Below, in pieces: positions 17,000-61,139 of a stretch of 64,000 nucleotides of DNA (the stretch's first letter is position 1; each line of letters opens with the position of its first letter). The notes under the pieces are model-generated. The model worked only from the letters and a program-made list of their open reading frames with translations, was not told where the DNA came from and ran no database searches. This DNA comes from Archivesica marissinica (Eukaryota; Mollusca; Bivalvia; Venerida; Vesicomyidae). The position numbers and the translations under genes are program-made. The stretch is taken from positions 6,389,773-6,453,772 of the forward strand of contig CM026404.1 of the NCBI GenBank assembly GCA_014843695.1. The letters are read 5' to 3'.

Positions 17000-18222
17000 C
17001 TGAGTCAAAAAAGAAACGATACCAAACTAAAAATGACGTAAAACGGATAAAACCATAGAAAGGTTTAATATATTATTACGTATCAGTACCGGGTATCTTA
17101 TTGCAACGTCAGCCAACCATAAACACAGGTAAATAAACACCCGATAATCCTGGAACGCCGAATTTCCGATTTGCACGTGCTCCTCAATAAAGACAATTTC
17201 CTACACATGTACAAATCGGAAAACCGGTTTATTGTACTGGTATTGCATTATCATCGAGGAAAAACACCTTACATACCCATTGTTACCTCTAACAAAATGC
17301 CTAGGCTAAACCGTAATCAGAGAATGCGTGCCATTGGCATGATTGACGGCGGTTCACGTCAGCGTGACGTCGCAATTCGACTAGGGGGTTACGCGGATCA
17401 CGATAACACGTCTACTTCGACGTTATCGAACACATGGATCGGTGGACGACCGTCCAAGATCTGGTCGACCACGTGTGACGACGCGTGAACAGGACCGTCA
17501 CATTCGGACGTCACATTTACGTGACCGGTTCCTACCTGCTACGCACACAGCTCCTGGGATGACCAACAATCGCATCAGTGCACAAACAGTCAGGAACCGG
17601 TCGGTGAACGTGGCATTCGTGCCTATCGGCCATACGTTGGACCCATCCTGACACGACGTCACCGTGACGTACGGCAGGAATGGACGACGGAACGTGCTCG
17701 CTGGACTCGGTTACAGTGGAATTCAGTGATGTTTAGCGATGAATCGTGCTTCTGTTTGCGTCGAGCGGATGGCAGAGAGCAGGTATATCGCAGACGCGGT
17801 GAACGTTCGGTCGATCTGTTCGGGGGCGGAAGCATTATGGCGTGGGGCGGTATCACCTTCGGCAGTCGCACTGAACTGTTAGTGGTGGACGGGAACCTAA
17901 ACGCCCAGCGGTACTGTGATGAGATCCTTGCGCCAGTTGTTGTGCCGTTCTTTAACGCCAACAGAAACGTCACACTGTTCCAACAGGACAACGCCAGGTG
18001 TCATACTGCTTGGATTTCCACCACATTATTGGAGCAGAACAATATTGAAACCCTGCCGTGGCCTGCTTTGTCACCAGACTTGTCACCCATAGAACATTTG
18101 TGGGATACGTTAGACCGCCTCGTCAGACGACGTCAGCCGGTAACGTTAAGCCAACTGAGGGATGTTTTGCGTCGGGAGTGGACACATATTGACCAGCAAG
18201 AGATTCAGACACTCTTCCGTTC

Positions 18223-21200
18223 AGGGTTGGCAATTTCCCGGGAAATAAGAGTATTTCCCGGGACGGCGGGAAATACTGGGAAATAAGAATTTGGATACCG
18301 GGAAATAAGAATTTGGATGATTTTGGTGGTAAATACGGGTATATATACCATACAATTTCTATTACCCGGTGTACTGATTGTAGTATCATGTGTGCAGGAT
18401 GAAAATGAACTGCTTTTGAAGAATATGACGAAAAATACAGGCATTCATAGTGGCATTTACGCATTGCTTATAATCTTTATATAAATGTTAGAGATCTAAC
18501 ATTATTGAGACTGTTCATTATTACTCTAATATACATTGTATACAAACACAGTTTAAGGAGTTTATACATACATTTATTGGAGGTATTTTAAATGTTTAAT
18601 GTAGTAGGCAAAATGCAAATGTTTTTAGGATTATCCCTGAAATGTGTTCATAATATAGCTGTATTATTAAAATAATCAATTAGTTATTAAAGAAGTCAGA
18701 ATCATAATTTGAGATGACCCACACTGTTTGTTTGTACACAATTTCAATTGACCTTTCTGCCGATTTTTATTGACAGCTGGCGTTAGCCAATCGCATCGCA
18801 CCATTCGCGCACACCCCCGGCAACGGTTTATCGCCACCATCTTATTAGACAAACAATGCATATTAGACACACTAGTAACGAGTAGACACATTTGAAAAGG
18901 CGTGAATTTTATCGAAAATACGGGTTTAAAATTGTTTTAATGATGTTGAAAATGTGTAGCTTTGGTGTGTGGGTTAGTTATAGTACAAAATTAGTCGATA
19001 CCCTGATGATCGACGTTAAATTCAACCCATTTCAAAATCCTTGGACAAATCTAAAAGTGTGTATATGAACCACAAAATACCAGACAGCTTATTTAAAAAC
19101 AATGCATCTATAAAAACACCGACTGACCCCATATAGTCATTCTTTTCTCACAAACACAGCAATCAAATTTAAGCGTGTCACACTGTTTATTGGGAGCAAT
19201 CAACAACGTACCCGCTAAGTACATCACAGAGACCGCCGAGTTATAATACACTGCTATCAAGATCAAAGTATTTCACATCGGAATTTAGCACTGATTGTGC
19301 TAATTGGTCAATTATAAAATGTGTGCACGTAATTATATAATTGATTACTACACCGAGTCATTGTTTTATCGTTATGTTAGATAAACGAGTTATGTAGTAA
19401 AATTTTAATCAAATCTGATAACGAGTGATCGTGATCTGAAATTATTTTTTGAAAAATATTTAAAATTAATTAATGCTGTCTGTCATTGACAATGGTGAAA
19501 AGATGTAGTTACGGGCTGTGTGACAGTGATGTAGATATCCAGATCGATTGATAGGTGACGTTAAATTCGTGCCATTTTCAAAAGCTAAGACAAATCTTGA
19601 AAACATGTCTAAGGTGGATTAAGTTGTGTGAACGACCAAACGACCAGCTGAATATATCCAAAAGTAATGCAAACAGATATATTTGCACAAAAGTAAGTTG
19701 AAATGAATTTATTTATGCATAATAAAATATTTCGAAAAAATATATTCTGCATTAATAGATCTACCGCTCACAAGAGATATGCGAGTATAGTGGTGATTAT
19801 ACATGTGGTTCATACATACTGTCGTGGATGGTGGACTAGGGATCAGATAGTAGTAATAGTACCCATGCATGTGCAGAGCTGTGGGATTCCCATATTAGCC
19901 CAGTGAACGTACTGGTGTTCAGTTTTTGGGCCTAATGTTCGAGTCTTCTAGGAGGCATAGGGTCGAGTCTCTCAAGACGGTGGCATATTTCATTTCTTTT
20001 GATGTCAAAGTTTACACGATGTGGTTGTTCACTCTTCCGTTGACTGCGCAAGCATTTACCACGAACACTTAACACCTCCTCATCCGTATATCTGTACTTT
20101 AGAGAAATAACCTTCACACCTACGTCTATTATGAGATGGGCTGTTGACAAATTAATCAATTACTGGAGAATATATTATTTTTCACACCTTGATTTGTCGG
20201 CTCAAACATTTGTGATGCTGGCTTGTATGCCCATGTTTTATCAGCCTTAGAGCTGAGCCGTGCCATATGTCCAAGCCCTTGAATCATGTATACATATCAT
20301 GCTCTTCACATCAATTTCATTACAACCATGGCGTCTATTTTTCCATGCGTTTTTTTGCTCTCATCACGTTTCCAGCCGTATGCATGCTCTTAGCTGCGAT
20401 AAGTGCCACCGTTGGAATCATCGAAAATGCGGAATGATTTATTTATTCTCCCCCATTCACTTTAATTAATCTTGATTAGTGGCCTGAAACCTAGATAGAT
20501 AGTCACTCCTGGTATGGCAAACACACAGCTACATAGTCCCATTCATAATTGTGTCTAATTACCTAAATAGCTAATAATAGCATTATTAGTGCAGTACTAT
20601 ATATATATAAAATACGAACCTGTGATTATACGAATGCACTAGTATACGAAACTACCATTAGACGAACAAGGGATTATACGAAATCACCTGAATTCACATA
20701 AAACCCTTGCCTTCTTGCTTTCAACGAGATATTCTTATCTGGGTGAAATAAAACCGAGAAATTCGACGGAATTTTATCTAGATTAACTCGATGCAGGTCT
20801 GCGTTAGACGCCATTTTGTTAGATAGCTTGTCTCGCGTGGTTACAGCGAACACCTGTAACTATGGGGGGCGTGCCTAAGTAGCGTTTGCAGAAAGGTCAA
20901 TTAGCAATGCCCAGTCAGGTGTTAAGGTGTGTTGTGGGACTTCAATTTCAAGATACATGTAGGTGTGAGAGATGTCAGCCAATTAGACAAAGGTGTCCAT
21001 ACTCTATAGTCCTAATCTCACTGGAATACACTGTCGGAGCGGAGAGTGGACAGTGGCTTCCATCTAACAGACAACCAGGTGTCTGTATTGCCTAAAAACA
21101 AAACAATACTATACTTGTCAAATTGAGTTTTACTCAACCTTGCATCATATAAGGCGACCCAAATCCACACTCAAACAAACAATAAAACCCCAAAAAAACC

Positions 21201-21999: not shown

Positions 22000-22710
22000 C
22001 ACACCTCTGTCCTGTTTTTGTTTACATCTATATCTAACGTCACACCCCTGCCCTGCTTTTGTTTACATCTATATCTAACGTCACACTCCTGTCCACCTTT
22101 TGTTTACATCTATATCTAACGTCGCACTCCTGCCCTGCTTTTGTTTACATCTATATCTAATGTCACACTCCTGTCCACCTTTTGTTTACATCTATATCTA
22201 ACGTCACACTCCTGTCCACCTTTTGTTTACATCTATATCTAACGTCACACTCCTGTCCACCTTTTGTTTACATCTATATCTAACGTCACACTCCTGTCCT
22301 GCTTTTGCTTACATCTATATCTAACGTCACACTCCTGTCCACCTTTTGTTTACATCTATATCTAACGTCACACTCCTGTCCACCTTTTGTTTACATCTAT
22401 ATCTAACGTCACACTCTAACGTCACACTCCTGTCCACCTTTTGTTTACATCTATATCTAACGTCACACTCCTGTCCACCTTTTGTTTACATCTATATCTA
22501 ACGTCACACTCATGCCCTGCTTTTGTTTACATCTATGTCTAACGTCACACTCCTGTCCACCTTTTGTTTACATCTATATCTAACGTCACACTCCTGTCCT
22601 GCTTTTGTTTACATCTATATCTAACGTCACACTCCTGTTCTGCTTTTGTTTACATCTATATCTAACGTCACACTCCTGTCCTGCTTTTGTTTACATCTAT
22701 ATCTATCGTT
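22000..22710. repeat. 41-bp minisatellite abutting the ZIP9 exon 2 acceptor
   Basis: About 17 units with a 41-bp period, containing TTTTGTTTACATCTATATC then TAACGTCACACTCCTGTCC. One unit is shortened near 22415. The array is pyrimidine-rich, and each unit holds TATCTAAC, which resembles a metazoan branch-point sequence. The last unit changes to ATCTATCGTTGTTTTCAG and becomes the 3' splice site of exon 2. Confidence 0.95.
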
Positions 22711-22718
22711 GTTTTCAG

Positions 22719-22824
22719 GACAAGTTGAAGTTGGTGACAGTTCTAGGAGCGGGGCTGTTGGTTGGTACGGCATTGGCTGTGATAATCCCGGAGGGAATCC
22801 ACGCTATGTCGATTGCTACAGCTC
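22719..22824 (+). CDS. SLC39A9: ZIP9 zinc transporter, exon 2
   Basis: ZIP9 is a multi-pass SLC39 zinc importer; in vertebrates it is found in the Golgi and at the plasma membrane. This 106-bp exon starts after GTTGTTTTCAG and ends before GTATGT. It encodes 35 residues plus one base (phase 1), beginning [20 protein letters not shown] and including PEGIHA. This matches the end of transmembrane segment 1's loop and all of segment 2 of vertebrate ZIP9 almost word for word. The preceding exon, which should encode the start codon and first membrane segment, is not found in the window. The reading frame stays open leftwards into the 41-bp array only by chance. Confidence 0.93.
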
Positions 22825-22965
22825 GTATGTATCGTTCCCTCGTCTATATTAATTGCGTTTAGTCTGTTGTTTTACTGACAAATGAGCTTGTGATTTGATT
22901 TAGACTCAAACAGCCAAACCCACATCACAGATCATAGCTGCTGTTGTTATTCTTCATATTACATG
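22825..22965 (+). other. ZIP9 intron 2, 5' end
   Basis: Unique sequence between the exon 2 donor GTATGT and the 17-bp array. Intron 2 as a whole spans 22825-28951 (6127 bp) and is mostly minisatellite. Confidence 0.8.
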
Positions 22966-24399
22966 TACCTTTCCCTACTTGCTACCTTTCCCTACTTGCT
23001 ACCTTTCCCTACTTGCTACCTTTCCCTACTTGCTACCTGCTACCTTTCCCTACTTGCTACCTTTCTCTACCTGCTACCTTTCCCTACTTGCTATCTTTCC
23101 ATACTTGCTACCTTTCCCTACTTGCTACCTTTCCCTACTTGCTACCTTTCCCTACTTGCTACCTTTCCCTACTTGCTTCCTCTACTTTCCCTACTTGCTA
23201 CCTTTCCCTACTTGCTACCTTTCCCTACTTGCTATCTTTCCCTACTTGCTACCTTTCCCTACTTGCTACCTTTCCCTACTTGCTACCTTTCCCTACCTTT
23301 CCCTACTTGCTACCTTTCCCTACTTGGTACTTTCCCTACTTGCTACCTTTCCCTACTTGGTACCTTTCCCTACTTGCTACCTTCCCCTACTTGCTACCTT
23401 TCCCTACTTGCTACCTTTCCCTACTTGCTATCTTTCCATACTTGCTACCTTTCCCTACTTGCTACCTTTCCCTACTTGCTACCTTTCCCTACCTTTCCCT
23501 ACTTGCTATCTTTCCCTACTTGCTACTTGCTATCTTCCATACTTGCTACCTTTCCCTACTTGCTACCTTTCCCTACTTGCTACATTTCCCTACTTGCTAC
23601 CTTTCCCTACTTGCCCTACTTGCTACCTTTCCCTACTTGCTACCTTTCCCTACCTTTCCCTACTTGCTACCTTTCCCTACTTGCTACCTTTTCCCTACTT
23701 GCTACCTTTCCCTACTTGCTACCTTTCCCTACTTGGTACCTTTCCCACTTGCTACCTTTCCATTCTTGCTACCTTTCCCTACTTGCTACCTTTCCTACTT
23801 TGCTATATTTCCCTACTGTTTTTTTTGCTACCTTTCCCTACTTGCTACCTTTCCCTACTTGCTACCTTTTTTTTTGTTTTACTTGCTATCTTTCCATCTT
23901 GCTACCTTTCCCTACTTGCTACCTTTCCCTACTTGCTACCTTTCCCTACTTGCTACCTTTCCCTACTTGCTACCTTTCCCTACTTGCTACCTTTCCATAC
24001 TTGCTACCTTTCCCTACTGCTACCTTTCCTACTTGCTACCTTTCCCTACCTGCTACCTTTCCCTACTTGCTACCTTTCCCTACTTGCTACCTTTCCCTAC
24101 CTGCTACCTTTCCCTACTTGCTACCTTTCCCTACTTGCTACCTTTCCCTACCTGCTACCTTTCCCTACTTCTACCTTTCCCTACTTGCCATACTTGCTAC
24201 CTTTCCCTACTTGCTACCTTTCCCTACTTGCCATACTTGCTACCTTTCCCTACTTGCCATACTTGCTACCTTTCCCTACTTGCTACCTTTCCCTACCTGC
24301 TACCTTTCCCTACTTGCTACCTTTCCCTACCTGCTACTACTTGCTACCTTTCCGTACTTGCTACCTTTCCCTACTTGCTACCTTTCCCTACTTGCTACC
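22966..24399. repeat. 17-bp pyrimidine-rich minisatellite (intron 2)
   Basis: About 84 units of TACCTTTCCCTACTTGC, with occasional short units (CCTACCTTTCC, TTGCCATACTTGC) and T-runs near 23820 and 23870. The strand is strongly C/T-biased. Long plus-strand frames (22944-24582) are repeat translation, not genes. Confidence 0.97.
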
Positions 24400-24642
24400 A
24401 AGAAATCGCAAACTACTCTCCTACATGGTCTCCTTCATGCACCTGATCTCCGTCACCATAGGCAACATGACACAACATTATTGGCTTCATTGAATCCTAG
24501 CTACATGTATACACCTAGCTATAATTCACTCCAACACTGCTTGATAATAGTGGTATCAACTTGTCAGTGTACATGTAAATGAAATAAGCTTATATTTGCT
24601 TGCATGACTAGACTACGTCACTTCTGTCTGCCTCACTTCCCA
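24400..24642. other. Intron 2 spacer
   Basis: Unique AT-rich sequence between two pyrimidine-rich arrays. No exon or RNA gene is seen. Confidence 0.5.
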
Positions 24643-24955
24643 CTCATCTGCCTCATTCCTCCCTCACTCATATTCCTCCCTCACTCATATTCCTCCCTCA
24701 CTCATATTCCTCCCTCATTTCTCCCTCCCTCATATTCCTCCCTCACTCATATTCCTCCCTCACTCATATTCCTCCCTCATTTCTCCCTCACTCATATTCC
24801 TCCCTCACGCATATTCCTCCCTCACTCATATTCCTCCCTCATTTCCCCCTCACTTTTCCATCATATCCCTCACTACTCCCTCTTCATCATTATTTCTCCC
24901 TCACTTCCTCACTTCTGCCTTACTTCTCCCTCATCTGCCTCACTTCTCCCTATTT
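24643..24955. repeat. 17-bp CT-rich minisatellite, degrading rightwards
   Basis: Units of CTCACTCATATTCCTCC repeat about a dozen times, mixed with CTCATTTCTCC variants. They decay into CTCACTTCTGCC-like sequence by 24955. A chance frame at 24604-25485 runs through it. Confidence 0.9.
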
Positions 24956-24980
24956 TTAGCTCTGTGAGAAGATTTGTCAC

Positions 24981-25437
24981 ATCTCCCATGTGGTATACCT
25001 CATACCCAGTCAACAAGTATCTCCCATGTGGTATAGTCAACAAGCATATCCCATGTGGTATAGTCAATAAGCATCTCCCATGTGGTATAGTCAATAAGCA
25101 TCTCCCATGTGGTATAGTCAATAAGCATCTCCCATGTGGTATAGTCAACAAGCGTCTCCCATGTGGTATAGTCAACAAGTATCTCCCATGTGGTATAGTC
25201 AACAAGTATCTCCCATGTGGTATAGTCAACAAGCATCTCCCATGTGGTATAGTCAACAAGTATCTCCCATGTGGTATAGTCAACAAGCATCTCCCATGTG
25301 GTATAGTCAACAAGCATCTCCCATGTGGTATAGTCAACAAGCATCTCCCATGTGGTATAGTCAACAAGCATCTCCCATGTGGTATAGTCAACAAGCATCT
25401 CCCATGTGGTATAGTCAACAAGCATCTCCCATGTCTC
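24981..25437. repeat. 27-bp minisatellite (intron 2)
   Basis: About 17 units containing ATCTCCCATGTGGTATAGTC then AACAAGC. Because 27 is a multiple of three, open frames appear on both strands; these are artefacts. Confidence 0.96.
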
Positions 25438-25805
25438 CATATCTTGACATGTCGAGACAAAATATTCCTTGGTCAGACAAAATAGAACAGTTTAACCAGT
25501 TTTCTAATCTGCGCCAGAACTATGCCAAAGTTTCATGAACATTGTAGGTTGTATGGATCATGCCATGAAATATGGATATATTTAGTACATTTTGTATATA
25601 CATGCTCTTCCGGTGCAGACTACCAATCTAGAGAAACATTGTATACATGTTTATAAACCCACTTAGGAATTTCATAATGAAAATGTGGCAGCAAAATCTA
25701 CAAACTGCAAACCACTTATTTATAATAAGAAAAGATTTAATCGACATAATCAGGTCATTAGTATGAAGTATTTACTGTTAAATAAAGACAAGTGCTGCCT
25801 ACTTC
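25438..25805. other. Intron 2 spacer
   Basis: Unique AT-rich intronic sequence between the 27- and 45-bp arrays; nothing recognisable. Confidence 0.5.
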
Positions 25806-26663
25806 ATTGTATTGTGCATATCAATGTACTGAGGCAAGGTGGGTATGTTTCTTGTATTGTGCATATCAATGTACTGAGGCAAGGTGTGTATGTTTCTTGT
25901 ATTGTGCATATCCATGTACCTGGCAAGGTGTGTATGTTTCTTGTATTATGCATATCAATGTACTGAGGCAAGGTGTGTATGTTTCTTGTATTGTGCATAT
26001 CAATGTACCGAGGCAAGGTGTGTATGTTTCTTGTATTGTGCATATCAATGTACTGAGGCAAGGTGTGTATGTTTCTTGTATTGTGCATATCAATGTACCG
26101 AGGCAAGGTGTGTATGTTTCTTGTATTGTGCATATCAATGTACTGAGGCAAGGTGTGTATGTTTATTGTATTGTGCATATCAATGTACCGAGGCAAGGTG
26201 TGTATGTTTCTTGTATTGTGCATATCAATGTACTGAGGCAAGGTGTGTATGTTTCTTGTATTGTGCATATCAATGTACCGAGGCTAGGTGTGTATGTTTC
26301 TTGTATTGTGCATATCAATGTACCGAGGCAAGGTGTGTATGTTTATTGTATTGTGCATATCAATGTACTGAGGCAAGGTGTGTATGTTTCTTGTATTGTG
26401 CATATCAATGTACCGAGGCAAGGTGTGTATGTTTCTTGTATTGTGCATATCAATGTACTGAGGCAAGGTGTGTATGTTTCTTGTATTGTGCATATCAATG
26501 TACTGAGGAAAGGTGTGTATGTTTCTTGTATTGTGCATATCAATGTACTGAGGCAAGGTGTGTATGTTTCTTGTATTGTGCATATCCATGTACCTGGCAA
26601 GGTGTGTATGTTTCTTGTATTATGCATATCAATATACCGAGGCAAGGTGTGTATGTTTCTTGT
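25806..26663. repeat. 45-bp minisatellite with 90-bp dimer pattern (intron 2)
   Basis: About 19 units with a 45-bp period, containing TTGTATTGTGCATATCAATG and AGGCAAGGTGTGTATGTTTC. Units carrying TACTGAGG and TACCGAGG alternate through most of the array, giving a 90-bp dimer. A TTTATTG variant recurs 180 bp apart (26161, 26341). Two units have a TACCTGG variant, one near each end. Confidence 0.96.
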
Positions 26664-26762
26664 TGCCTACTGACCATATGTTACTCCACTACCACACTAA
26701 ATGTACTGCCACATCAAGATATGGAATTTAAAGAGGTGTTTGTTTTCTAAGATCTACATATT

Positions 26763-27163
26763 CAGGGGCGTAGCTAGCAGTTTTAAATTGGTATGCCCGA
26801 CTAATAAATTGAGCACCAAAGGATGGGAATTTGCTAGAGTAGTCTGGGGGGCATGGTCCCCCAAGGAGGGCATGGTCCCCCGAGGACAATTTTGAATCAC
26901 ATAACGACGATGGTGCACTCTGACACATTTAAATCTTGGATGTTCAAATTTCGATATTTTCAGAGATATGAATTTAACTTTTTATGTTGTGCAGAATGCA
27001 TGTGACCTCCAAGGTGACAACCCAACTCTTCATCATATTCCCACCTACCCCCACCCACACCCCTAAACGTTTTATTGCATTTTTGGGGTTTTTAGATTTT
27101 TTTGATTTTTTGGGACAATCTACGGGCCCAGCTCATCAGGGATGTATAGAAGCTACATGCCTG
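26763..27163. mobile_element. Possible hAT-type MITE
   Basis: The left end CAGGGGCGTAGCTAGC and the right end (inverted CAGGCATGTAGCTTC) match at 10 of the first 13 positions. CAGGGGCGTAGC-type ends are common in non-autonomous hAT elements. No clear target duplication is seen, so the limits are tentative. The interior has the GCATGGTCCCCC pair and no coding sequence. Confidence 0.4.
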
Positions 27164-27382
27164 AAATGAATACCAGTACAGGTAAGTGAAAACAGAACAT
27201 ATTGAATGTTTCCAGCTGTGTATTGCATTTACTGATGATAAAGTCACAGATGGTGGGTATGATAAATATGTATCACAAAGTCACAGATGTTTCTACATGT
27301 AATTTATATGCAATCAAATTAATCTGACATGCTATCATTATCTACATATATATGTTTAGAGTGATTTAGCTGGGTACTGATA

Positions 27383-28885
27383 TGATCTGACAGAGATACT
27401 CGAGTGTGATCTGACAGAGGTACTTGAGTGTGATCTGACAGAGGTACTAGAGTGTGATCTGACAGAGATACTTAAGTGTGATCTGACAGAGATACTTAAG
27501 TGTGATCTGACAGAGATACTTGAGTGTGATCTGACAGAGGTACTTGAGTGTGATCTGACAGAGGTACTAGAGTGTGATCTGACAGAGATACTTAAGTGTG
27601 ATCTGACAGAGATACTTAAGTGTGATCTGACAGAGATACTTGAGTGTGATCTGACAGAGGTACTTGAGTGTGATCTGACAGAGGTACTAGAGTGTGATCT
27701 GACAGAGATACTTAAGTGTGATCTGACAGAGATACTTAAGTGTGATCTGACAGAGATACTTGAGTGTGATCTGACAGAGGTACTTGAGTGTGATCTGACA
27801 GAGGTACTAGAGTGTGATCTGACAGAGATACTTAAGTGTGATCTGACAGAGATACTTAAGTGTGATCTGACAGAGATACTTGAGTGTGATCTGACAGAGG
27901 TACTAGAGTTGATCTGACAGAGATACTAGAGTGTGATCTGACAGAGATACTAGAGTGTGATCTGACAGAGGTACTAGAGTGTGATCTGACAGAGATACTA
28001 GAGTGTGATCTGACAGAGATACGAGTATGATCTGACAGAGTACTGAGTGTGATCTGACAGAGATACTAGAGTGTGATCTGACAGAGATACTAGAGTGTGA
28101 TCTGACAGAGATACTAGACTGATCTGACAGAGATACTAGACTGTGATCTGAGAGAGATACTAGAGTGTGATCTGACAGAGATACTAGAGTGTGATCTGAC
28201 AGAGATACTAGAGTGTGATCTGACAGAGGTACTAGAGTGTGATCTGACAGATACTAGACTGATCTGACAGAGATACTAGACTGTGCTCTGAGAGAGATAC
28301 TAGAGTGTGATCTGACAGAGATACTAGAGTGTGATCTGACAGAGATACTAGAGTGTGATCTGACAGAGATACTAGAGTGTGATCTGACAGAGATACTAGA
28401 GTGTGATCTGACAGAGATACTAGACTGATCTGACAGAGATACTAGACTGTGATCTGAGAGAGATACTAGAGTGTGATCTGACAGAGATACTAGAGTGTGA
28501 TCTGACAGAGATACTAGAGTGTGATCTGACAGAGGTACTAGAGTGTGATCTGACAGATACTAGACTGATCTGACAGAGATACTAGACTGTGCTCTGAGAG
28601 AGATACTAGAGTGTGATCTGACAGAGATACTAGAGTGTGATCTGACAGAGATACTAGAGTGTGATCTGACAGAGATACTAGAGTGTGATCTGACAGAGAT
28701 ACTAGAGTGTGATCTGACAGAGATACTAGACTGATCTGACAGAGATACTAGACTGTGATCTGAGAGAGATACTAGAGTGTGATCTGACAGAGATACTAGA
28801 GTGTGATCTGACAATACTCGAGTGTGATCTGACAATACTCGAGTGTGATCTAACAATACTCGAGTGTGATCTGACAGAGATACTC
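27383..28885. repeat. 24-bp minisatellite with two kinds of higher-order repeat (intron 2)
   Basis: Units contain TGATCTGACAGAGATACTAG then AGTG. On the left (about 27390-27905) five unit variants cycle to give a 120-bp higher-order repeat. On the right, shortened units (TAGACTGATC at 28115, 28421, 28727; and at 28255, 28561) give a 306-bp higher-order repeat. The array ends about 66 bp before exon 3. Confidence 0.96.
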
Positions 28886-28951
28886 TTCCATCCCAGATAG
28901 GGTTAATATTTCCTAGAACTGTTCAGTGACAAACATTGTATGATATTTCAG

Positions 28952-29149
28952 AGGAGCAACATGACCGTGCACACGAGGAGAAAGATGTGGACAAGGAGCA
29001 CAGTCATGACGGTACAGCGGCGAGCGACAGCCACGCCCACAGCGCTATCGACGACCACTCTCTCATCGGGATCACACTGGTGGCCGGGTTTATATTTATG
29101 TTATTGGTGGACCAGATAGGAGGCGGAGGGCATATGCATATACCTGCAG
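28952..29149 (+). CDS. SLC39A9: ZIP9 zinc transporter, exon 3 (His-rich loop and membrane segment 3)
   Basis: 198-bp exon after TGATATTTCAG and before GTAGGA. Its first two bases complete the codon begun by exon 2 (C+AG, Gln), and it ends one base into a codon. It encodes residues 36-101 of the visible protein. First comes a charged loop with seven histidines (QEQHDRAH ... KEHSHD ... DSHAHS ... DDHS), as expected of the metal-binding loop in ZIP9. Then comes a hydrophobic segment GITLVAGFIFMLLVDQIG, which matches membrane segment 3 of the family, followed by HMHIP. The loop is more acidic than I recall in vertebrates. Confidence 0.93.
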
Positions 29150-29335
29150 GTAGGAGCAGGTCAAACATCTTCAGCCCTTTATTTCTGAAAATCCCTATGC
29201 ATGTTACAGAATAGTCTGTACATGTATATGGACATAATTGAACAAAATGGAAATATTTGATCTGCATTTTTTTCAACTCTTGTTATATAATCTGTCACCA
29301 TAGTGATACTGTTGTTTGAATCTGAGAATTGTTCT
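29150..29335 (+). other. ZIP9 intron 3, start
   Basis: Donor GTAGGA and unique AT-rich sequence. Intron 3 spans 29150-30255 (1106 bp). Confidence 0.75.
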
Positions 29336-29825
29336 CAACCAATCAGAAAGCTTGAAACTAGGTTTGCAGTTATCGAGCTCAAGTGAATATACATGTAATT
29401 GGTTGAATCCTAGATGTGCACTCGGTGCAACCAATCAGAAAGCTTGAAACTAGGTTTGCAGTTATCGAGCTCAAGTGAATATACATGTAATTGGTTGAAT
29501 CCTAGATGTGCACCCGGTGCAACCAATCAGAAAGCTTGAAACTAGGTTTGCAGTTATCGAGCTCAAGTGAATATACATGTAATTGGTTGAATCCTAGATG
29601 TGCACCTGGTGCAACCAATCAGAAAGCTTGAAACTAGGTTTGCAGTTATCGAGCTCAAGTGAATATACATGTAATTGGTTGATTCCTAGATGTGCACCCG
29701 GTGCAACCAATCAGAAAGCTTGAAACTAGGTTTGCAGTTATCGAGCTCAAGTGAATATACATGTAATTGGTTGATTCCTAGATGTGCACTCGGTGCAACC
29801 AATCAGAAAGCTTGAAACTGAGTTT
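29336..29825. repeat. 92-bp tandem repeat with inverted CCAAT/ATTGG ends (intron 3)
   Basis: Five full units start at 29336, 29428, 29520, 29612 and 29704, with a partial sixth at 29796. Each unit carries CAACCAATCAGAAAGC on the left and AATTGGTTGAATCC on the right, so CAACCAAT and ATTGGTTG form an inverted pair about 55 bp apart. Related CTTTCTGATTGGTT occurs at about 35713. Confidence 0.95.
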
Positions 29826-30255
29826 GAATTGATTTAGCTGTTGCCAGTCTCAGGTTCTATTGAATCTATTTATGGTTCTCGTCTGTAGCCAATCAAAATC
29901 AAATGGCTGAGTTGGATATTATAGTAGGGCGTGCATATTTAATGCCTTAAAGCAAAAGGGTTAGGGTTAATGCAAATTTCTACAGAATGTAATTTCCTAT
30001 TATATGGTATAGTTTGTTTCCAAATATTTGCCTTAAAAGCAGGGTATTTCAACTAAGAAACAAACGTCGTATATGCGGTTTGTTGACGTAACTAAATAAT
30101 GTAAATAGGGTCGTAATCCAACACGTGTATCCTGAATGGCACGATTTATGTTACAGATTTACCGTTATATCTCACATTTGTACATATGCATAATTATTTA
30201 TTTGTAGACTAATCTTAGTTAAATTATCTCTAAAAGTATGTATTTGCGATTTCAG

Positions 30256-30339
30256 ACTCGGAATTGGGTACAAATCCTACATCTCAACAAAACAGACATA
30301 AAATAACAGCTACGCTAGGACTGGTTGTACATGCGGCAG
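30256..30339 (+). CDS. SLC39A9: ZIP9 zinc transporter, exon 4 (start of membrane segment 4)
   Basis: 84-bp exon between TTGCGATTTCAG and GTATCA. It opens with two bases completing an Asp codon and ends one base into the next codon. It encodes residues 102-129: a polar linker, then KITATLGLVVHAA. His127 is the first half of the ZIP metal-binding signature H-x-x-x-D. The Asp is supplied by exon 5, so the signature is split across intron 4, the intron that carries the decoy acceptors. Confidence 0.93.
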
Positions 30340-30605
30340 GTATCATAATCTTGTCTCTTTCTTACATTTATACATTAAAAACTTTAAAATTCCAGAATAT
30401 TTTAATGTTATTATTTTTCAAACTTTCCCAAGAATATATTCAATATCGATGTAGCGTACAAACTAAAAATAAGAAAGAACACATTCATGAACTGTCTGCT
30501 ACAATTATTTGAACTATTTATAGCCTAAATTTTACCCAGCATGCAAAGAGTTAGATAGCATATTCAAGGAAATTCTTTTTGAGAATGTATATACATGTAT
30601 ATGGA
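30340..30605 (+). other. ZIP9 intron 4, start
   Basis: Donor GTATCA, then AT-rich unique sequence. Intron 4 is 30340-31360 (1021 bp). Confidence 0.75.
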
Positions 30606-31007
30606 TGTTGTAGCAATGGTAGCGCGTTCACTTCAGGTGTGAAATGTCCGGAGCATGCGCTCAGCTGTAGCTGTTACGATTGTGCCCTTAAGCGTTAAAC
30701 TTTATTTATTTTACAACAATTGCGAAGCAAGTTCTAACAACTTATATTAATCACTTTCGTTGACGCGGATGAAATTGTATATGTGGTCATTCGTGTGGGG
30801 GGGAACCGGAGTACCCGGAGAAAATCCATCTGTCTGATCTTGTGACCACCGTACCATCTTGCATACTTACCGGTCTGAGGATCGAACCCGGGTTGCATTG
30901 GTGAGAAGCGAGCACGCTAACCACTGCGCTAATCAGACAGCCTTAGATGTTGCCTCCTCTCTCCCCTCCCTCCTGGTGATAGCTTCCATCAGGAATGAGG
31001 TGTCAGG
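30606..31007 (+). repeat. SINE family A, interrupted by a family B SINE
   Basis: The left part (30606-30695) and right part (30943-31007) together match the uninterrupted copy at 34111-34271: GGTGTGAAATGTCCGGAG, TTACGATTGTGCCCTTA, then TGTTGCCTC and TTCCATCAGGAATGA. The tRNA-like head of this family (TGATAGCATAATGGATGC with GAGTTTGAGCCC) is clear only in the 34111 copy; here it is decayed. Confidence 0.75.
30696..30942 (-). repeat. SINE family B, full-length, tRNA-derived
   Basis: Read on the minus strand, the head has an A box (TTAGCGCAGTGGTTAGCG) and a B box (GGTTCGATCC), the internal Pol III promoter of a tRNA-derived SINE. The body holds the GGAACCGGAGTACCCGG box. The tail on the left is TTTATTTATTTTACAAC-like. 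It is inserted in a family A SINE and lies in ZIP9 intron 4, antisense to the gene. Confidence 0.88.
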
Positions 31008-31110
31008 TAGGAGGGATTGAATTATGTGCAAGATCTTGTTTTGCAATCAAGCTGAAGTAAACTGTTTATGGCCAGACGTTCATATTACCCGTATATTAGA
31101 GAGGTATAAG

Positions 31111-31360
31111 CTGATGGTATACCTTGAAGTTTCTGTACGTTCTATTGGTTTATATTTCAGCTGATGGTATAGCTTGATGTTTCTGTACGTTCTATTGGTT
31201 TATATTTCAGCTGATGGTATAGCTTGAAGCTTCTGTAAGTTCTATTGGTTTATATTTCAGCTGATGGTATAGATTGAAGCTTCTGTAAGTTCTATTGGTT
31301 TATGTTTCAGCTGATGGTATAGCTTGAAGTTTCTGTACATTCTATTGGTTTATGTTTCAG
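31111..31360 (+). repeat. 50-bp x5 array: tandem copies of the exon 5 splice acceptor
   Basis: Five units of exactly 50 bp start at 31111, 31161, 31211, 31261 and 31311. Each begins CTGATGGTATAGCTTGAAG (first 10 bases identical to the start of exon 5) and ends TCTATTGGTTTATATTTCAG or TTTATGTTTCAG. The fifth TTTCAG (31360) is the true acceptor; those at 31160, 31210, 31260 and 31310 are decoys with the same polypyrimidine context. Joined to exon 4, every decoy meets TGA after five codons. Units 3 and 4 also contain a perfect donor GTAAGT (31235, 31285), each defining a 24-nt pseudo-exon. Confidence 0.95.
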
Positions 31361-31446
31361 CTGATGGTATCGCTATGGGTGCTGCCGTGTCTATGTCCAC
31401 GTCTCATCTAACATTTATAGTGTTTGTAGCTATCATGTTGCATAAG
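31361..31446 (+). CDS. SLC39A9: ZIP9 zinc transporter, exon 5 (segments 4-5, metal-binding motifs)
   Basis: 86-bp exon between TTTATGTTTCAG and GTTAGT. It begins two bases into a codon and ends in phase 0. Residues 130-158 start ADGIAMGAAVSMSTSH and end FVAIMLHK. Asp131 pairs with His127 from exon 4, and His157-Lys158 are the segment 5 signature; these line the zinc path in ZIP proteins. It is chosen over four upstream look-alike starts because only this copy continues without a stop and matches the family. Confidence 0.94.
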
Positions 31447-31463
31447 GTTAGTATATCTGTATA

Positions 31464-31688
31464 CAGGCAAACCTGTGTTAGTGGTCACCTCTATTCGATA
31501 GCCAACCTGTATTAAACAGCCAGTTTCCAGATTTCAAATATATTATTTTAATATACATTAAGCAGACACCTGTGCAAAGTAGCCAGTTTTCAGTTTGCAA
31601 ATATATTATTATCTATTAAACAGCCACCTGTACTAAGCAGCCAGTTTCTGTGATTCCTTCAGATGGCTGCTTAAGACAGGTTTGGCTG
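31464..31688. mobile_element. TA-flanked MITE, family 1 (intron 5)
   Basis: Ends CAGGCAAACCTGTGTTAGTG and inverted CAGCCAAACCTGTCTTAAGC, flanked by TA on both sides (31462-31463, 31689-31690). The interior repeats TAAGCAGCCAGTTT-like sequence. It belongs to the same family as 35989-36166 and 40940-41103. It sits 17 bp after the exon 5 donor. A TA duplication points to the Tc1/mariner superfamily. Confidence 0.8.
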
Positions 31689-31690
31689 TA

Positions 31691-32389
31691 TGTTGTATAT
31701 GTCCTCTCACCTTGCCTTGTCATTCTCTATTTGCTGTAAATCTAGCCCAGCCACGTGTGATGTTTCAAACCTATAACCTCCAGCAGCAGTACTTGTTTGT
31801 GGTCAGGTAGATAAATTGGCCATTGACAATGGAGCCACCAAATGAAAGCCAGTATAGGAGGATATTAATAATGATTTGTGTTTTATTTTCCTGGTTCCTT
31901 GGCCCCTTGTTCACTCGTGTAGTTACAATATTTCGAAACGTGTATTTCTGTTCCTGCCAAATGTTCAGAATCATGCACTAGCGCTTGATTTGATATTTGT
32001 TACAGGAATATAACAATCATACAGCATGATTATATTTCAGAATCATGCAGTTCCGCATGTATGTGATTAAAAACAAATATTTCTTGAGAAATGTTGGCCT
32101 CTGAAAATACTATGTTTACGATGCACAGCATTCACTGGAACTCCGCCCCTGTCCTCGATTTCAGTGCCATAAAATAGATGTGCATTATACATGGTAGCGC
32201 AGCGTACATCGATAAATACGGTATTGTCACAGTGCAGGGCTGTGCCACGGAGAATAAATTTATTTTGGGAGATGCATACGTTGTAGGAAATTGTGTAGAA
32301 TATAATTTATTATTCTGTTTATAATGGCTGCATTTGATCTGGATTTTTGGAGTATATTATTCATATTGTATGTTATTTTCTGTTTTCAG
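31691..32389 (+). other. ZIP9 intron 5, remainder
   Basis: About 700 bp of unique AT-rich sequence between the MITE and exon 6. Intron 5 is 31447-32389 (943 bp), with donor GTTAGT and acceptor TTTTCTGTTTTCAG. No other feature is seen. Confidence 0.7.
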
Positions 32390-32524
32390 GCACCAGCAGC
32401 CTTTGGTTTGGTATCATTTTTGCTCCATGAAGGTTTTGACAGAGCGAGAATACGACGACATTTGTTTATATTTGCCGCAGCGGCACCAATAGGAGCTATA
32501 GTAACTTATATATGTATAAATCAG
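32390..32524 (+). CDS. SLC39A9: ZIP9 zinc transporter, exon 6 (segments 5-6)
   Basis: 135-bp exon, 45 codons, phase 0 at both ends, between TTCTGTTTTCAG and GTACCG. It begins [17 protein letters not shown], directly continuing the HK of exon 5, as in vertebrate ZIP9. It then has a basic stretch RARIRRH and a hydrophobic segment [20 protein letters not shown] (membrane segment 6). Residues 159-203 of the visible protein. Confidence 0.94.
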
Positions 32525-32625
32525 GTACCGTCATCTTCTATTCCCAATCAAGTTGAAAAGTGTTAGGAAATATCGACGTCTGTTTTTTCGTAGAAGATTG
32601 AATAGATCAGTAGACAGAAACAACT

Positions 32626-33034
32626 GTTGTCAATCATGACGGTTGCTGTCAATCATGATGGTTGCTGTCAATCATGACGGTTGCTGTCAATCATGACGGT
32701 TGCTGTCAATCATGACGGTTGCTGTCAATCATGACGGTTGCTGTCAATCATGACGGTTGCTGTCAATCATGACGGTTGCTGTCAATCATGACGGTTGCTG
32801 TCAATCATGACGGTTGCTGTCAATCATGAAGTTGCTGTCAATCATGACGGTTGCTGTCAATCATGATGGTTGCTGTCAATCATGACGGTTGCTGTCAATC
32901 ATGATGGTTGCTGTCAATCATGACAGTTGCTGTCAATCATGATGGTTGCTGTCAATCATGATGGTTGCTGTCAATCATGATGGTTGCTGTCAATCATGAT
33001 GGTTGCTGTCAATCATGACGGTTGCTGTCAATCC
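32626..33034. repeat. 19-bp minisatellite (intron 6)
   Basis: About 21 units of GTTGCTGTCAATCATGACG, with a C/T alternation (GACGG or GATGG) and one 18-bp unit at about 32829. It starts about 100 bp after the exon 6 donor. Intron 6 is 32525-35259 (2735 bp). Confidence 0.97.
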
Positions 33035-34110
33035 TTGAATTAGGTATTTAAAAACATACCCAACCTAATTTCAAATCTCACAAACAGCATGCAATGTTGC
33101 ACTTCATTTACTGTTTACCTCTTTGTATAAACTGTAATGTGATGGACAATGAAATGCTTGTATTTTCTCACTTTTCATGTGAAATAAATATTGCATAACA
33201 CCCCACCAACCCCCCCCCTCCTCCACCCCCTCTATATCGATCATGTCTTTATACAACGTCATTTTTCCATTTTTCTTTATACTAGTACAATACATGTACA
33301 TAAGTAAGTTATCTTCTAAAGTTAGATTTAGGACAAGTTGTCTGTATTATTATATTAATAGGAGACATTGCTGGCTTTTCTATTATCTCCCTTGGCAGGT
33401 AAATTCTGATTTATCCCTAAACGTATATCGGTCCTTTTAGTTGGAATCCTGTGTTTTTACGGTTGTTCACTAAACAGATGTTGCAGAATGATAAATGTGA
33501 TTTTTTGTTTTAATTTGTGTTAATTAATTGATAACAAATTTGTACAGATAAGTAAATAAATAGCCATTGCATATAATAATCTGTCGGGATGTAGTACTGT
33601 AATAATAATAAGATGAGAAAGTGGGTGGAAATTGATAGCATGCATGTTGTGCAAAGGAATCAACGAACAAAACAGAGGAGAACCAATTTAGAGAAACTAT
33701 AAACTTTTAGGGAGCATTCAGGGGAAGTAACTGACTGATGTTTCTTAATGAAAGTGTTGCTACTATTTACTGTGTTTGTGTATTGTGTCATTAACTCTGA
33801 CTGGGCTGCCATATCATTTCATTTTATGTAGGACAAACAGCTTTAAGATGTTTTGTATTTTCAGTAAACAGCTAAGATAAGATAAGATCAATTTTATTTT
33901 GAGTCGGCAAGATACCAATTGTACAACACAAGTTCTGAGTGAGCTTTTGAACCGACTATATAACATAAAATAATGGTAACAGCTATAAAATTAGAATCTA
34001 GCTGTAAGATGTTGTATCTTGTACATTTTTTTACTATTTTCATAGAGTTTTGTCCAGTAAGAGATACACTGACCCATTATAAAGCACTCCTTCTTTTCAA
34101 ATGTTGTATT
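33035..34110 (+). other. ZIP9 intron 6, middle
   Basis: Mostly unique AT-rich sequence. It includes a C-rich stretch near 33200-33232 and GATAAGATAAGATCAATTTT near 33884, possibly the edge of a decayed repeat. No exon is seen. Confidence 0.5.
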
Positions 34111-34271
34111 GTGGAAGTCGTGATAGCATAATGGATGCATGTTCGCTTTAGGTGCGAAAGGTCCGGAGTTTGAGCCCTGCTGGAGCCGTTACGATTGTGC
34201 CCTTAGGCATGTTGCCTCTTCCCTCTCCCCCGTGGCGATGGATTCCATCAGGAATGATGTCTCGAGAGTGA
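34111..34271 (+). repeat. SINE family A, uninterrupted copy (intron 6)
   Basis: tRNA-like head: A-box-like TGATAGCATAATGGATGC and B-box-like GAGTTTGAGCCC. The body is TTACGATTGTGCCCTTAGG, and the end is TTCCATCAGGAATGATGTC. A hAT-like element begins right after it. Confidence 0.75.
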
Positions 34272-34277
34272 TTAATA

Positions 34278-35180
34278 CAGGGCTCGACTACCGTGGTTGA
34301 CTGCAGTTTTACCTGCCCGAATGAGATTTTCACCTGCCCAAAGTTTTACTTCTGATTATTTGTTCATATTTAATTTTTCAACACTGTATACAGGTTCATA
34401 ACATTACTGTTTTCTGGCCGTGCATTTTGGAAGAAACAGCAAAGATATCCCAAATCGTGCTTAATATTGCACCACTCTAAATCTTATGTGATGCTGTGTG
34501 CAGCTGTATCACAAACAATCCCAATGAGTTCGAGCCCTACCATTGTTTCCTTGAGCAAGAAACTTTATCCAAAATTGTGTAGTACTGTGGTTGGTCCCAG
34601 GAACAGACGTAAACATGCCATGATTAATCTAAGTTGTAGAACTTGTTTGATAATCGAGCTTAAAATATATTAGTACAGATTAGCTCTCGCAATCCTTTAA
34701 ATGTGGTAGCCCAACTGTCCACCCATCCACGCTTGCGCTTCTTTTCATAAGCTTGCTTGTCAGGCTGTCTTTTTTGGGGGGAAGCCGATAAAAAAAATTG
34801 ACAGTTGCGTCTGCCCAGATGACCACATTTTAAAAACGCTTCCTATGTATAACTGTAACTGAGGTTTCAATTGGACAAAATCAGCCAATCAGCAAAGCCG
34901 ATTCAAAAATACTCTCCAACAGGAGATTATTTCATAGTAACAGTAACAACACATTCCGATTGGTTAATACATGCAGCTTTATGCTTACGTCATGAGACAA
35001 GTACCTGTTTCGGTTTATTATTATCGAGCAAGAGTAGCGGCACTTAAGTTTACTATCGTTTCGTAAACTATTGAAACAAAAACTAGTTGCCCGTCGGGCA
35101 AGCGAGTAACAACAAGTACTTGCCCGCTGCCAACATTTACCTGCCCCGGGCAATCGGGCAGTGATTAGTGTCGAGCCCTG
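34278..35180. mobile_element. hAT-like non-autonomous element (intron 6)
   Basis: The ends CAGGGCTCGACTACCG and inverted CAGGGCTCGACACTAATC share the first 11-12 bases. TTAATA lies directly outside both ends (34272-34277 and 35181-35186). Subterminal CCTGCCCGAATG and TTGCCCGCTGCC stretches are typical of this element type. No transposase is visible. It ends only 79 bp before exon 7. Confidence 0.75.
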
Positions 35181-35259
35181 TTAATATAAGTGACCTAGAA
35201 TGAACCCTGTGTGTATGTTCAGCAATCAGCTGTAACACTTCGTTTCTTGTATATTTCAG

Positions 35260-35505
35260 AAAAGTATGGAAGTTTTAAATGATGCTCATACCACGGGTAT
35301 AGCCATGTTATTTAGTGCAGGCACCTTCTTATATGTGGCCACAGTGCATGTGCTTCCCGAGCTTGCCAGTCGACAGACGCGGCAGACTTTACCAGATGGA
35401 ACAGTCGTCGTACACGATCATAAAGGATTTGCTAAGATGGACTTAGTAGTACTAGTTTTTGGTGCCGTTGTACCAGTCCTGATAAGCATTGGTCATAAAC
35501 ATTAA
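35260..35505 (+). CDS. SLC39A9: ZIP9 zinc transporter, exon 7 (C-terminus and stop)
   Basis: 246 bp including the stop, after TCTTGTATATTTCAG. Residues 204-284 begin KSMEVLNDAHTTGIAMLFSA and continue GTFLYVATVHVLPEL (membrane segment 7). A variable hydrophilic loop follows. The end is LVVLVFGAVVPVLISIGHKH (segment 8), and the terminal GHKH parallels the GHQH end of vertebrate ZIP9. Stop TAA at 35503-35505. With a 30-35-residue exon 1 the protein would be about 315-320 residues, against 307 in human. Confidence 0.94.
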   Translation, partial: KSMEVLNDAHTTGIAMLFSAGTFLYVATVHVLPELASRQTRQTLPDGTVVVHDHKGFAKMDLVVLVFGAVVPVLISIGHKH

Positions 35506-50360: not shown

Positions 50361-51272
50361 TCAAAATCAACGATTTCCAAATTACAGAATGTTCAACACA
50401 CAGCTGCCCGCCTGATATCAAAAACGTCCCGGTTCGACCACGTGTCTCCTATTCTTGAAGATCTCCACTGGCTACCCGTCAACTACAGAATTAAATACAA
50501 AATCCTAACACTAACATATAAAGCACTAAATGACAAAGGCCCAGTTTACATTAAAAACATGCTGAAAGTGTACCACCCTAAGAGAACATTAAGATCGCAA
50601 AATGGTTCCCTTAGACTAGTCGAGGAGGACCCAAGACACATTAAGTCAGTGACATATGGTGACAGAAGATTTGAAGTAGCCGCACCAAAACTATGGAACG
50701 CCCTTCCCAATGGAATCAGGGACTCAAAATCGTTGTGTTCCTTTAAAAGATCTTTGAAAACACACTTTTTCAAACAAGCGTATGGATGTTAAATATCAAT
50801 GATTTCCAAATTACATGTTGATAGTTTTTCCTTTTTTAATATTATTCATAAATGAAGTTATGTTGTTTTAATGAAAGATTTAATAATAATTTTTAAATGT
50901 TTTTATTTTTGTTTATTTCTTAAGGTTATTTAAATCAACGACATTAGGAATTATATATCTTATCTTAGGCATCTTATATTAGTTTTCAGTTCTTATAATT
51001 TTTAATGTTCTAATGTTTCGATAACTTGTTTCATTAATGATTATGTAGGTTTTATTTAATTTTTGTTTCTTTAGTTTAGTAATTTTAGTTTTAAGATCCA
51101 TATTTTTCAATCTCTAATTACTTTTTATACATGTATTGTATTGTCATGTTTTGCTTACTTATTCATGTTTTACCATATCTGTGATATGTCATATGTTCAA
51201 CTGTAAAGCGCCTTTGAGCGCATACCTTATTATGAAAAGGGCGCTATATAAATGTGGTATATTATTATTATT
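50361..51272 (+). mobile_element. 5'-truncated LINE, copy 1 (reverse transcriptase C-terminus and 3' UTR)
   Basis: The open frame runs from about 50364 (KSTISKLQNVQHTAARLISK) through SPILEDLHWLPVNYRIKYK and YGDRRFEVAAPKLWNALP to a stop at 50790-50792. This is the C-terminal end of a CR1/jockey-group non-LTR reverse transcriptase. An AT-rich 3' UTR follows, ending GCGCTATATAAATGTGG and (ATT)n. The catalytic RT core and endonuclease are missing, so it is a dead 5'-truncated fragment. It lies inside the 36-bp satellite, with about 6-8 bp of the target unit missing and no clear target duplication. Confidence 0.88.
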
Positions 51273-54155: not shown

Positions 54156-55067
54156 TCAAAATCAACGATTTCCAAATTACAGAATGTTCAACACACAGCT
54201 GCCCGCCTGATATCAAAAACGTCCCGGTTCAACCACGTGTCTCCTATTCTTGAAGATCTCCACTGGCTACCCGTCAACTACAGAATTAAATACAAAATCC
54301 TAACACTAACATATAAAGCACTAAATGACAAAGGCCCAGTTTACATTAAAAACATGCTGAAAGTGTACCACCCTAAGAGAACATTAAGATCGCAAAATGG
54401 TTCCCTTAGACTAGTCGAGGAGGACCCAAGACACATTAAGTCAGTGACATATGGTGACAGAAGATTTGAAGTAGCCGCACCAAAACTATGGAACGCCCTT
54501 CCCAATGGAATCAGGGACTCAAAATCGTTGTGTTCCTTTAAAAGATCTTTGAAAACACACTTTTTCAAACAAGCGTATGGATGTTAAATATCAATGATTT
54601 CCAAATTACATGTTGATAGTTTTTCCTTTTTTAATATTATTCATAAATGAAGTTATGTTGTTTTAATGAAAGATTTAATAATAATTTTTAAATGTTTTTA
54701 TTTTTGTTTATTTCTTAAGGTTATTTAAATCAAAGACATTAGGAATTATATATCTTATCTTAGGCATCTTATATTAGTTTTCAGTTCTTATAATTTTTAA
54801 TGTTCTAATGTTTCGATAACTTGTTTCATTAATGATTATGTAGGTTTTATTTAATTTTAGTTTCTTTAGTTTAGTAATTTTAGTTTTAAGATCCATATTT
54901 TTCAATCTCTAATTACTTTTTATACATGTATTGTATTGTCATGTTTTGCTTACTTATTCATGTTTTACCATATCTGTGATATGTCATATGTTCAACTGTA
55001 AAGCGCCTTTGAGCGCATACCTTATTATGAAAAGGGCGCTATATAAATGTGGTATATTATTATTATT
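54156..55067 (+). mobile_element. 5'-truncated LINE, copy 2
   Basis: Same 912 bp as copy 1, with identical left and right boundaries, 3795 bp downstream. Only a few substitutions are seen (for example TTCAACC for TTCGACC at about 54229, and AAAGACATT for AACGACATT at about 54733). The coding remnant ends at 54585-54587. Confidence 0.88.
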
Positions 55068-60842: not shown

Positions 60843-61139
60843 CTGAGTCAAAAAAGAAACGATACCAAACTAAAAATGACGTAAAACGGATAAAACCATA
60901 GAAAGGTTTAATATATTATTACGTATCAGTACCGGGTATCTTATTGCAACGTCAGCCAACCATAAACACAGGTAAATAAACACCCGATAATCCTGGAACG
61001 CCGAATTTCCGATTTGCACGTGCTCCTCAATAAAGACAATTTCCTACACATGTACAAATCGGAAAACCGGTTTATTGTACTGGTATTGCATTATCATCGA
61101 GGAAAAACACCTTACATACCCATTGTTACCTCTAACAAA

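Follow-up and report, generated by a model that had tools for sequence, protein, structure and literature searches.

A 50-bp minisatellite spanning the intron 4–exon 5 boundary repeats the exon 5 acceptor of ZIP9 in Archivesica marissinica

The window analyzed here is a 64,000-nucleotide stretch of the genome of the vesicomyid bivalve Archivesica marissinica (C19:6389773-6453772 of a 1.54-Gb assembly), and it contains most of a ZIP9 (SLC39A9) gene (Table 1). Exons 3-6 match the Pfam Zip family (PF02535, E 8.8e-19), and exons 2-7, when joined into a 284-aa query, share 84% identity with a ZIP9-B-like protein of Ruditapes philippinarum, the highest identity among the 120 matches listed. A Mercenaria ZIP9 form shows 83% identity over 71% of the same query. 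A search of solved structures with a 167-aa ZIP9 query gave no match at E<=0.001. Placed in order, the seven exons form one open frame of 316 amino acids whose sole stop lies at the end, and exons 2-7 are bounded by GT donors and AG acceptors, suggesting that the gene is active. Intron 4 divides the H-x-x-x-D motif as HAA/AD, with exon 4 ending in GCG GCA G and exon 5 starting with CT GAT, in agreement with an earlier reading made from the sequence alone.

The 3' end of this intron is part of a tandem array, for which TRF reports a period of 50, 5.3 copies, and 94% matches. Its head-to-tail arrangement and unit length (roughly 10-100 bp) are those of a minisatellite. Each unit consists of about 36 nt of intron end and a 14-nt exon head. 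All five units terminate in TTTCAG, and exon 5 itself follows the last of them with a unit-like head. The sequence-only reading had described a 50-bp unit repeated exactly five times; the five copies are present, but they are not exact, as 7 of the 50 columns vary and pairs of units differ at 2-5 positions. It had also placed the first bases of exon 5 within the unit, which holds with some imperfection. All five unit heads have A in place of C at position 11 of the exon (both encoding Ile), with further mismatches in U1 at position 12 and in U4 at position 13, so that the heads of U1 and U4 carry two changes and those of U2, U3, and U5 a single synonymous one; from position 15 on, all units diverge from the exon. 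Neighboring units have variants in common (CTTCTGTAAG in U3 and U4, TATGTTTCAG in U4 and U5, and GTACG in U1 and U2), as would be expected from local duplication. The acceptor part of the unit contains one of the seven variable columns and the remainder of the unit six, but neither this placement (Fisher p=0.11) nor the clustering of the columns (p=0.09) is significant, and selection preserving the additional acceptors is therefore not claimed.

Beyond the array and the exon head, the only trace of the unit in the window is one weak 13-nt match at 30004. A search of the genome matched four places, with full matches only at two ZIP9 places; on C1 and C2, the matched stretch (query positions 12-70 and 12-62) precedes the array. 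A short dispersed repeat at 31011-31070, with 85-87% matches on C1 and C2, lies just upstream of the array.

Table 1. Positions of the ZIP9 exons, tandem arrays, acceptors, and candidate microexons, in window coordinates
Feature	Position	Strand	Remarks
ZIP9 exon 1	-4434 to -4339, upstream of window		tblastn placement
41-bp x 17 array	22000..22709	+	ends 9 nt before exon 2 acceptor
ZIP9 exon 2	22719..22824	+	tblastn; donor GTATGT
ZIP9 exon 3	28952..29149	+	tblastn
ZIP9 exon 4	30256..30339	+	tblastn; ends in phase 1 within HAAAD motif
50-bp x 5.3 tandem array	31109..31374	+	TRF, unit alignment; spans from the 3' end of ZIP9 intron 4 through nt 14 of exon 5
Unit U1	31111-31160		
Unit U2	31161-31210		
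Unit U3	31211-31260		
Unit U4	31261-31310		
Unit U5	31311-31360		
Decoy AG 1	31159..31160	+	predicted exon 5 of 286 nt; ADGIA then stop, 269 nt before exon 5/6 junction
Decoy AG 2	31209..31210	+	predicted exon 5 of 236 nt, in-frame length; ADGIA then stop, 219 nt before junction
Candidate 24-nt poison microexon	31211..31234	+	decoy AG 31210 to GTAAGT donor at 31235
Decoy AG 3	31259..31260	+	predicted exon 5 of 186 nt; ADGID then stop, 169 nt before junction
Candidate 24-nt poison microexon	31261..31284	+	decoy AG 31260 to GTAAGT donor at 31285
Decoy AG 4	31309..31310	+	predicted exon 5 of 136 nt; ADGIA then stop, 119 nt before junction
Real exon 5 acceptor AG	31359..31360	+	open ZIP9 frame; tblastn match to exon 5
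ZIP9 exon 5	31361..31446	+	tblastn
ZIP9 exon 6	32390..32524	+	tblastn
ZIP9 exon 7, coding part including TAA	35260..35505	+	tblastn

The region surrounding the array occurs twice in the assembly. Positions 20899-57295 recur at 62588-98984 (window coordinates; C19:6452360-6488756) with 0 mismatches and 0 gaps over 36,397 bp. On the left flank, the second copy lacks 18750-20898 but has 17000-18749 at 99.77%. A second exon 1 lies at 111252-111347, and the 496 bases compared show 0 differences. The resulting order along C19 is exon 1, exons 2-7, exons 2-7, exon 1, with 1000-N gaps between, which suggests either a false duplication in the assembly, the likely case, or a very recent one. Both copies contain the same five units, but given their identity over the full 36,397 bp they amount to one sequence seen twice, and the second copy was rejected as an independent allele. 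Within the duplicated flanks, open reading frames at 17171-18286 and 61014-62129 have the look, by eye, of a Tc1/mariner-type transposase. A 116-aa reverse-transcriptase-like tail, also recognized by eye, occurs whole at 50442-50792 and 54237-54587 inside a 36-bp array, and a third copy, starting from 56968 just past this array, is cut by an N gap.

A locus assembled in this way, with exons 2-7 and exon 1 each present twice and 1000-N gaps between them, could be mis-assembled at the array as well, which would make the array itself, or the number of its units, erroneous. The array, however, sits within an ungapped stretch, its units are set apart by diagnostic changes, and it agrees in both assembly copies, which may not be independent. 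An artefact of this kind is very improbable.

Unit alignment confirms the four upstream AGs that had been proposed as decoys, each in the same TTTCAG context as the real acceptor. As the sequence-only reading had stated, only the last AG leads into the real exon 5, and it is the sole one of the six AGs tested that keeps the ZIP9 frame open. The local contexts of the five sites are close to equal: the last 20 nt are identical in U4 and U5, and U1-U3 deviate solely at -7. All five TTTCAG sites have a pyrimidine content of 0.71 over -20 to -4, compared with 0.53-0.76 for the five remaining ZIP9 acceptors of the window. The head of each unit also contains CTGAT, which resembles a branch point and lies 46 nt ahead of the next AG. 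With five TTTCAG sites before one exon, the locus has the sequence arrangement of putative alternative tandem acceptors, with at least two AGs in acceptor context. In human reporter libraries, two tandem acceptors with the same consensus showed no order preference at distances of 2-59 nt (PMC6783452). Taken together with the equal local contexts, this suggests that some use of the decoys in ZIP9 transcripts may fairly be expected.

Splicing to any decoy is predicted to end translation almost at once. Three decoys would give ADGIA and the one at 31260 ADGID, each followed by a stop. The variant with Pro that had also been attributed to the decoys (ADGIP and a stop) comes instead from an AG at 31110, which has neither TTTCAG nor a pyrimidine tract. 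Under the mammalian rule, a transcript is subject to nonsense-mediated decay (NMD) when its stop lies more than about 50 nt ahead of an exon junction. All four decoy stops lie 119-269 nt before the exon 5/6 junction, and the corresponding transcripts are therefore predicted NMD targets. The stops are present at all four decoys, as had been claimed, but they are not special: when the sequence of a one-unit extension before exon 5 was shuffled, a stop appeared in 5000 of 5000 trials, which is attributed to the frame shift caused by a 50-nt extension. The decoy anatomy, the premature stops, and the predicted NMD of the sequence-only reading thus survive, whereas the features that it cited as special are weak.

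The units also contain donor-like sites, which that reading had missed. In U3 and U4, a GTAAGT lies 24 nt after a decoy AG, with the donor GT at 31235 and 31285. These sites make it possible that U3 and U4 act as 24-nt poison microexons, that is, as cassette exons that would bring an in-frame TGA between exon 4 and exon 5. The introns left between such microexons and the AG at 31360 would measure 126 and 76 nt. Against this stand the short length of 24 nt for exon definition, the T rather than G that precedes each GT, and the presence of GTACGT or GTACAT in place of GTAAGT in U1, U2, and U5. Poison microexons are, on this evidence, quite unlikely.

At the other extreme, the array could be inert, with the decoys never used and the exon-proximal acceptor fixed by exon 5 and its donor. 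In favor of this, the exon departs from the unit past position 14, and predicted RNA accessibility is highest at this site among the five TTTCAG sites in all three window settings (0.034, 0.023, and 0.032, against at most 0.012, 0.011, and 0.006 at the others). These differences are tiny and come from a single sequence, however, and all five sites are predicted to be mostly paired. The tract-less AG at 31110 out-scores the real acceptor in one setting (0.052), and the other ZIP9 acceptors range from 0.013 to 0.399 in a single setting. The extended exons of 136-286 nt would, moreover, use the same donor as exon 5. A wholly inert array is an improbable outcome. The predicted fold of 31090-31446 has a z of -1.97, and 4 of 100 shuffled sequences fold equally well; with this result and the tiny accessibility differences, an RNA structure that hides the decoys was rejected.

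Tandem arrays are common throughout the region. TRF gives 45 rows in the window, and arrays make up 65.6% of its length and 48.5% of the ZIP9 gene region (22000-35505), with rows merged by hand, one of them across a 1000-N gap. They make up 36% of nine further loci, a non-random sample of 9 out of 27 that includes six neighbors of the ZIP9 locus, and one of the nine is without arrays. Other arrays in the gene also end near acceptors. A 24-bp x 63.8 array ends 67 nt before the exon 3 acceptor, and the 41-bp array that abuts the exon 2 acceptor contains CTAAC, presumably a branch-point-like motif, 16 times. If array ends were placed uniformly, 0.09 of them per such gene would be expected at positions 1-20 of an exon, or roughly 1 in 11, with ten array ends in the gene taken as an approximation. 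The five-copy array is far beyond chance as a sequence, yet arrays are the rule in this region.

Duplicated acceptors were also surveyed in myosin genes. A Myosin_head search gave 74 matches among the 65 of 265 candidates that were scored, corresponding to at least 30 loci. Six of 30 loci did not differ from others across the 120 nt surrounding the match start and were left out; of the remaining 24, three more (L037, L047, and L055) were set aside because their acceptor was judged not clear, which gives 21. These myosin acceptors are putative and were placed from sequence by a simple score, one of them (L051) by eye. For each acceptor, the segment from -30 to +12 was compared, ungapped, with the 600 nt upstream. 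Tandem-copied acceptors were found at 1 of 21 myosin sites (L031, 34/42 at -45) and 1 of 6 ZIP9 sites (exon 5, 39/42), or 2 of 27 in a small sample from two gene families, at a threshold of 34/42 that is L031's own score and was chosen after the fact. Below these came 28/42 (ZIP9 exon 2) and 26/42. At guessed positions, the three unclear acceptors score 20-22 of 42, and the count including them is 2 of 30.

Background positions reach the same threshold at least as often. Random positions in the 30 myosin loci did so in 258 of 1500 cases (for 2 of 27 acceptors, P(X<=2)=0.13; two-sided Fisher 0.30). For intron-side positions, taken from the 24 distinct loci at 100-700 nt before the start of the match, the figure was 100 of 600 (P(X<=2)=0.15; two-sided Fisher 0.29). 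Acceptors are therefore not enriched for tandem duplication: their capture by duplication recurs in this genome, no more than at the background rate. The myosin case (near position 1515 of L031; C5:66176392, +) is a two-copy 45-bp duplication of an acceptor and exon head. Its decoy, TAG followed by GATGTCCATATG, is in frame and has no stop (DVHMNSNDLFVYIFQ before DFHVNSFEQ), and its use would add 15 residues; a built-in stop is thus not a general feature of such duplications. In the myosin locus with the acceptor placed by eye (positions 1-1503; C5:66183658), a 40-bp x 37.7 array that contains CATCAG 25 times ends 18 nt before the acceptor.

Considered together, these observations indicate that the array is probably a minisatellite born across an intron–exon boundary, with the decoys as by-products that may add some unproductive splicing. 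The array would have been founded when a 50-bp piece lying across the boundary between intron 4 and exon 5 was duplicated in tandem. Since the unit spans the intron end and the exon head, each new copy bears a complete-looking acceptor, and the four upstream acceptor copies would have arisen as the repeat grew. ZIP9 presumably still works through the last AG, as this is the only one that leads into the real exon. At most, the decoys would send some transcripts toward an extended exon 5 that meets a stop at once, and NMD would remove these transcripts. Several considerations weigh against the by-product reading. The four decoy AGs and their tracts are intact. Tandem acceptors with the same consensus show no order preference in the human reporter libraries (PMC6783452), so that decoy use could be substantial and not noise. 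The survey of 27 acceptors is small and its threshold was set after the fact, and the prior for by-products would be lower if acceptor capture were under strong purifying selection.

The array could instead serve as a copy-number rheostat, as the sequence-only reading had suggested by inference, in which the decoys compete with the real acceptor, extra units raise unproductive splicing, and a varying copy number sets ZIP9 level via NMD. The decoys match the real site in pyrimidine content, all four of them yield stops well upstream of the next junction, and equal tandem acceptors lack an order preference in the human reporter work (PMC6783452). There is also a precedent in TERT, where the repeat number of VNTR6-1 alters splicing and NMD, though in a G-quadruplex-linked manner (PMC11830802). 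Conversely, the sole second copy of the array is identical over its whole 36,397-bp surroundings, acceptor capture recurs at or below background, and the stops are nearly unavoidable, as the shuffled extensions indicate. A rheostat is unlikely, and the by-product reading is better supported. It is likewise doubtful that the five equal acceptors form a splice attenuator whose unit number tunes ZIP9 and varies among clams, in a genome that serves as a recurrent source of attenuators. In a genome this crowded with repeats, the copied acceptors most probably arose by accident and not as a means of control, and the array has probably not been under selection as such.

The human 6-16/IFI6 gene reportedly contains a minisatellite with multiple splice donors. 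There, as in ZIP9, tandem repeats introduce splice sites into a gene, but its sites are donors, whereas the ZIP9 array has putative acceptors and an exon head. Use of the 6-16/IFI6 sites is reported, and that of the ZIP9 decoys is putative. The duplicated-splice-site globin constructs of 1983-86, which were artificial, reportedly set acceptors of equal strength in competition. Among the literature matches listed, none showed repeated acceptors in a natural array, although exact-phrase matching makes this a weak absence; PMC9035003 describes a human donor site with an 8-bp duplication.

In humans, 792 introns lie in 262 tandem repeats (PMC10809524). UBC resembles the ZIP9 array in that splice sites are repeated in register with the tandem unit. 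The UBC sites are AGGT, can be used both ways, and delimit ubiquitin monomers (PMC10809524); at the end of all five ZIP9 units, in contrast, the boundary is AG/CT, which is not dual-specific in the UBC manner, and the decoys lead to stops. TERT VNTR6-1 is also an intronic minisatellite, with TERT repeat length linked to splicing and NMD, but it lies about 3.5 kb from the exon, is tied to G-quadruplexes, and does not contain the splice site (PMC11830802), whereas the ZIP9 array does. The designed tandem-acceptor reporters share with ZIP9 the competition between acceptors of equal strength; they are artificial and have two sites 2-59 nt apart (PMC6783452), compared with five natural sites 50 nt apart in ZIP9.

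The ZIP9 array is a natural counterpart of the duplicated-acceptor experiments on the choice among equal 3' splice sites, and its minisatellite copy number, if variable, would supply a natural dose series. If the decoys are silent, the locus would indicate that a gene can tolerate repeated copying of an acceptor with its reading frame unbroken. The duplicated myosin acceptor suggests that this repeat-rich genome may contain more such cases, either in frame, where they would give new peptide insertions, or with stops, where they would lead to attenuation.
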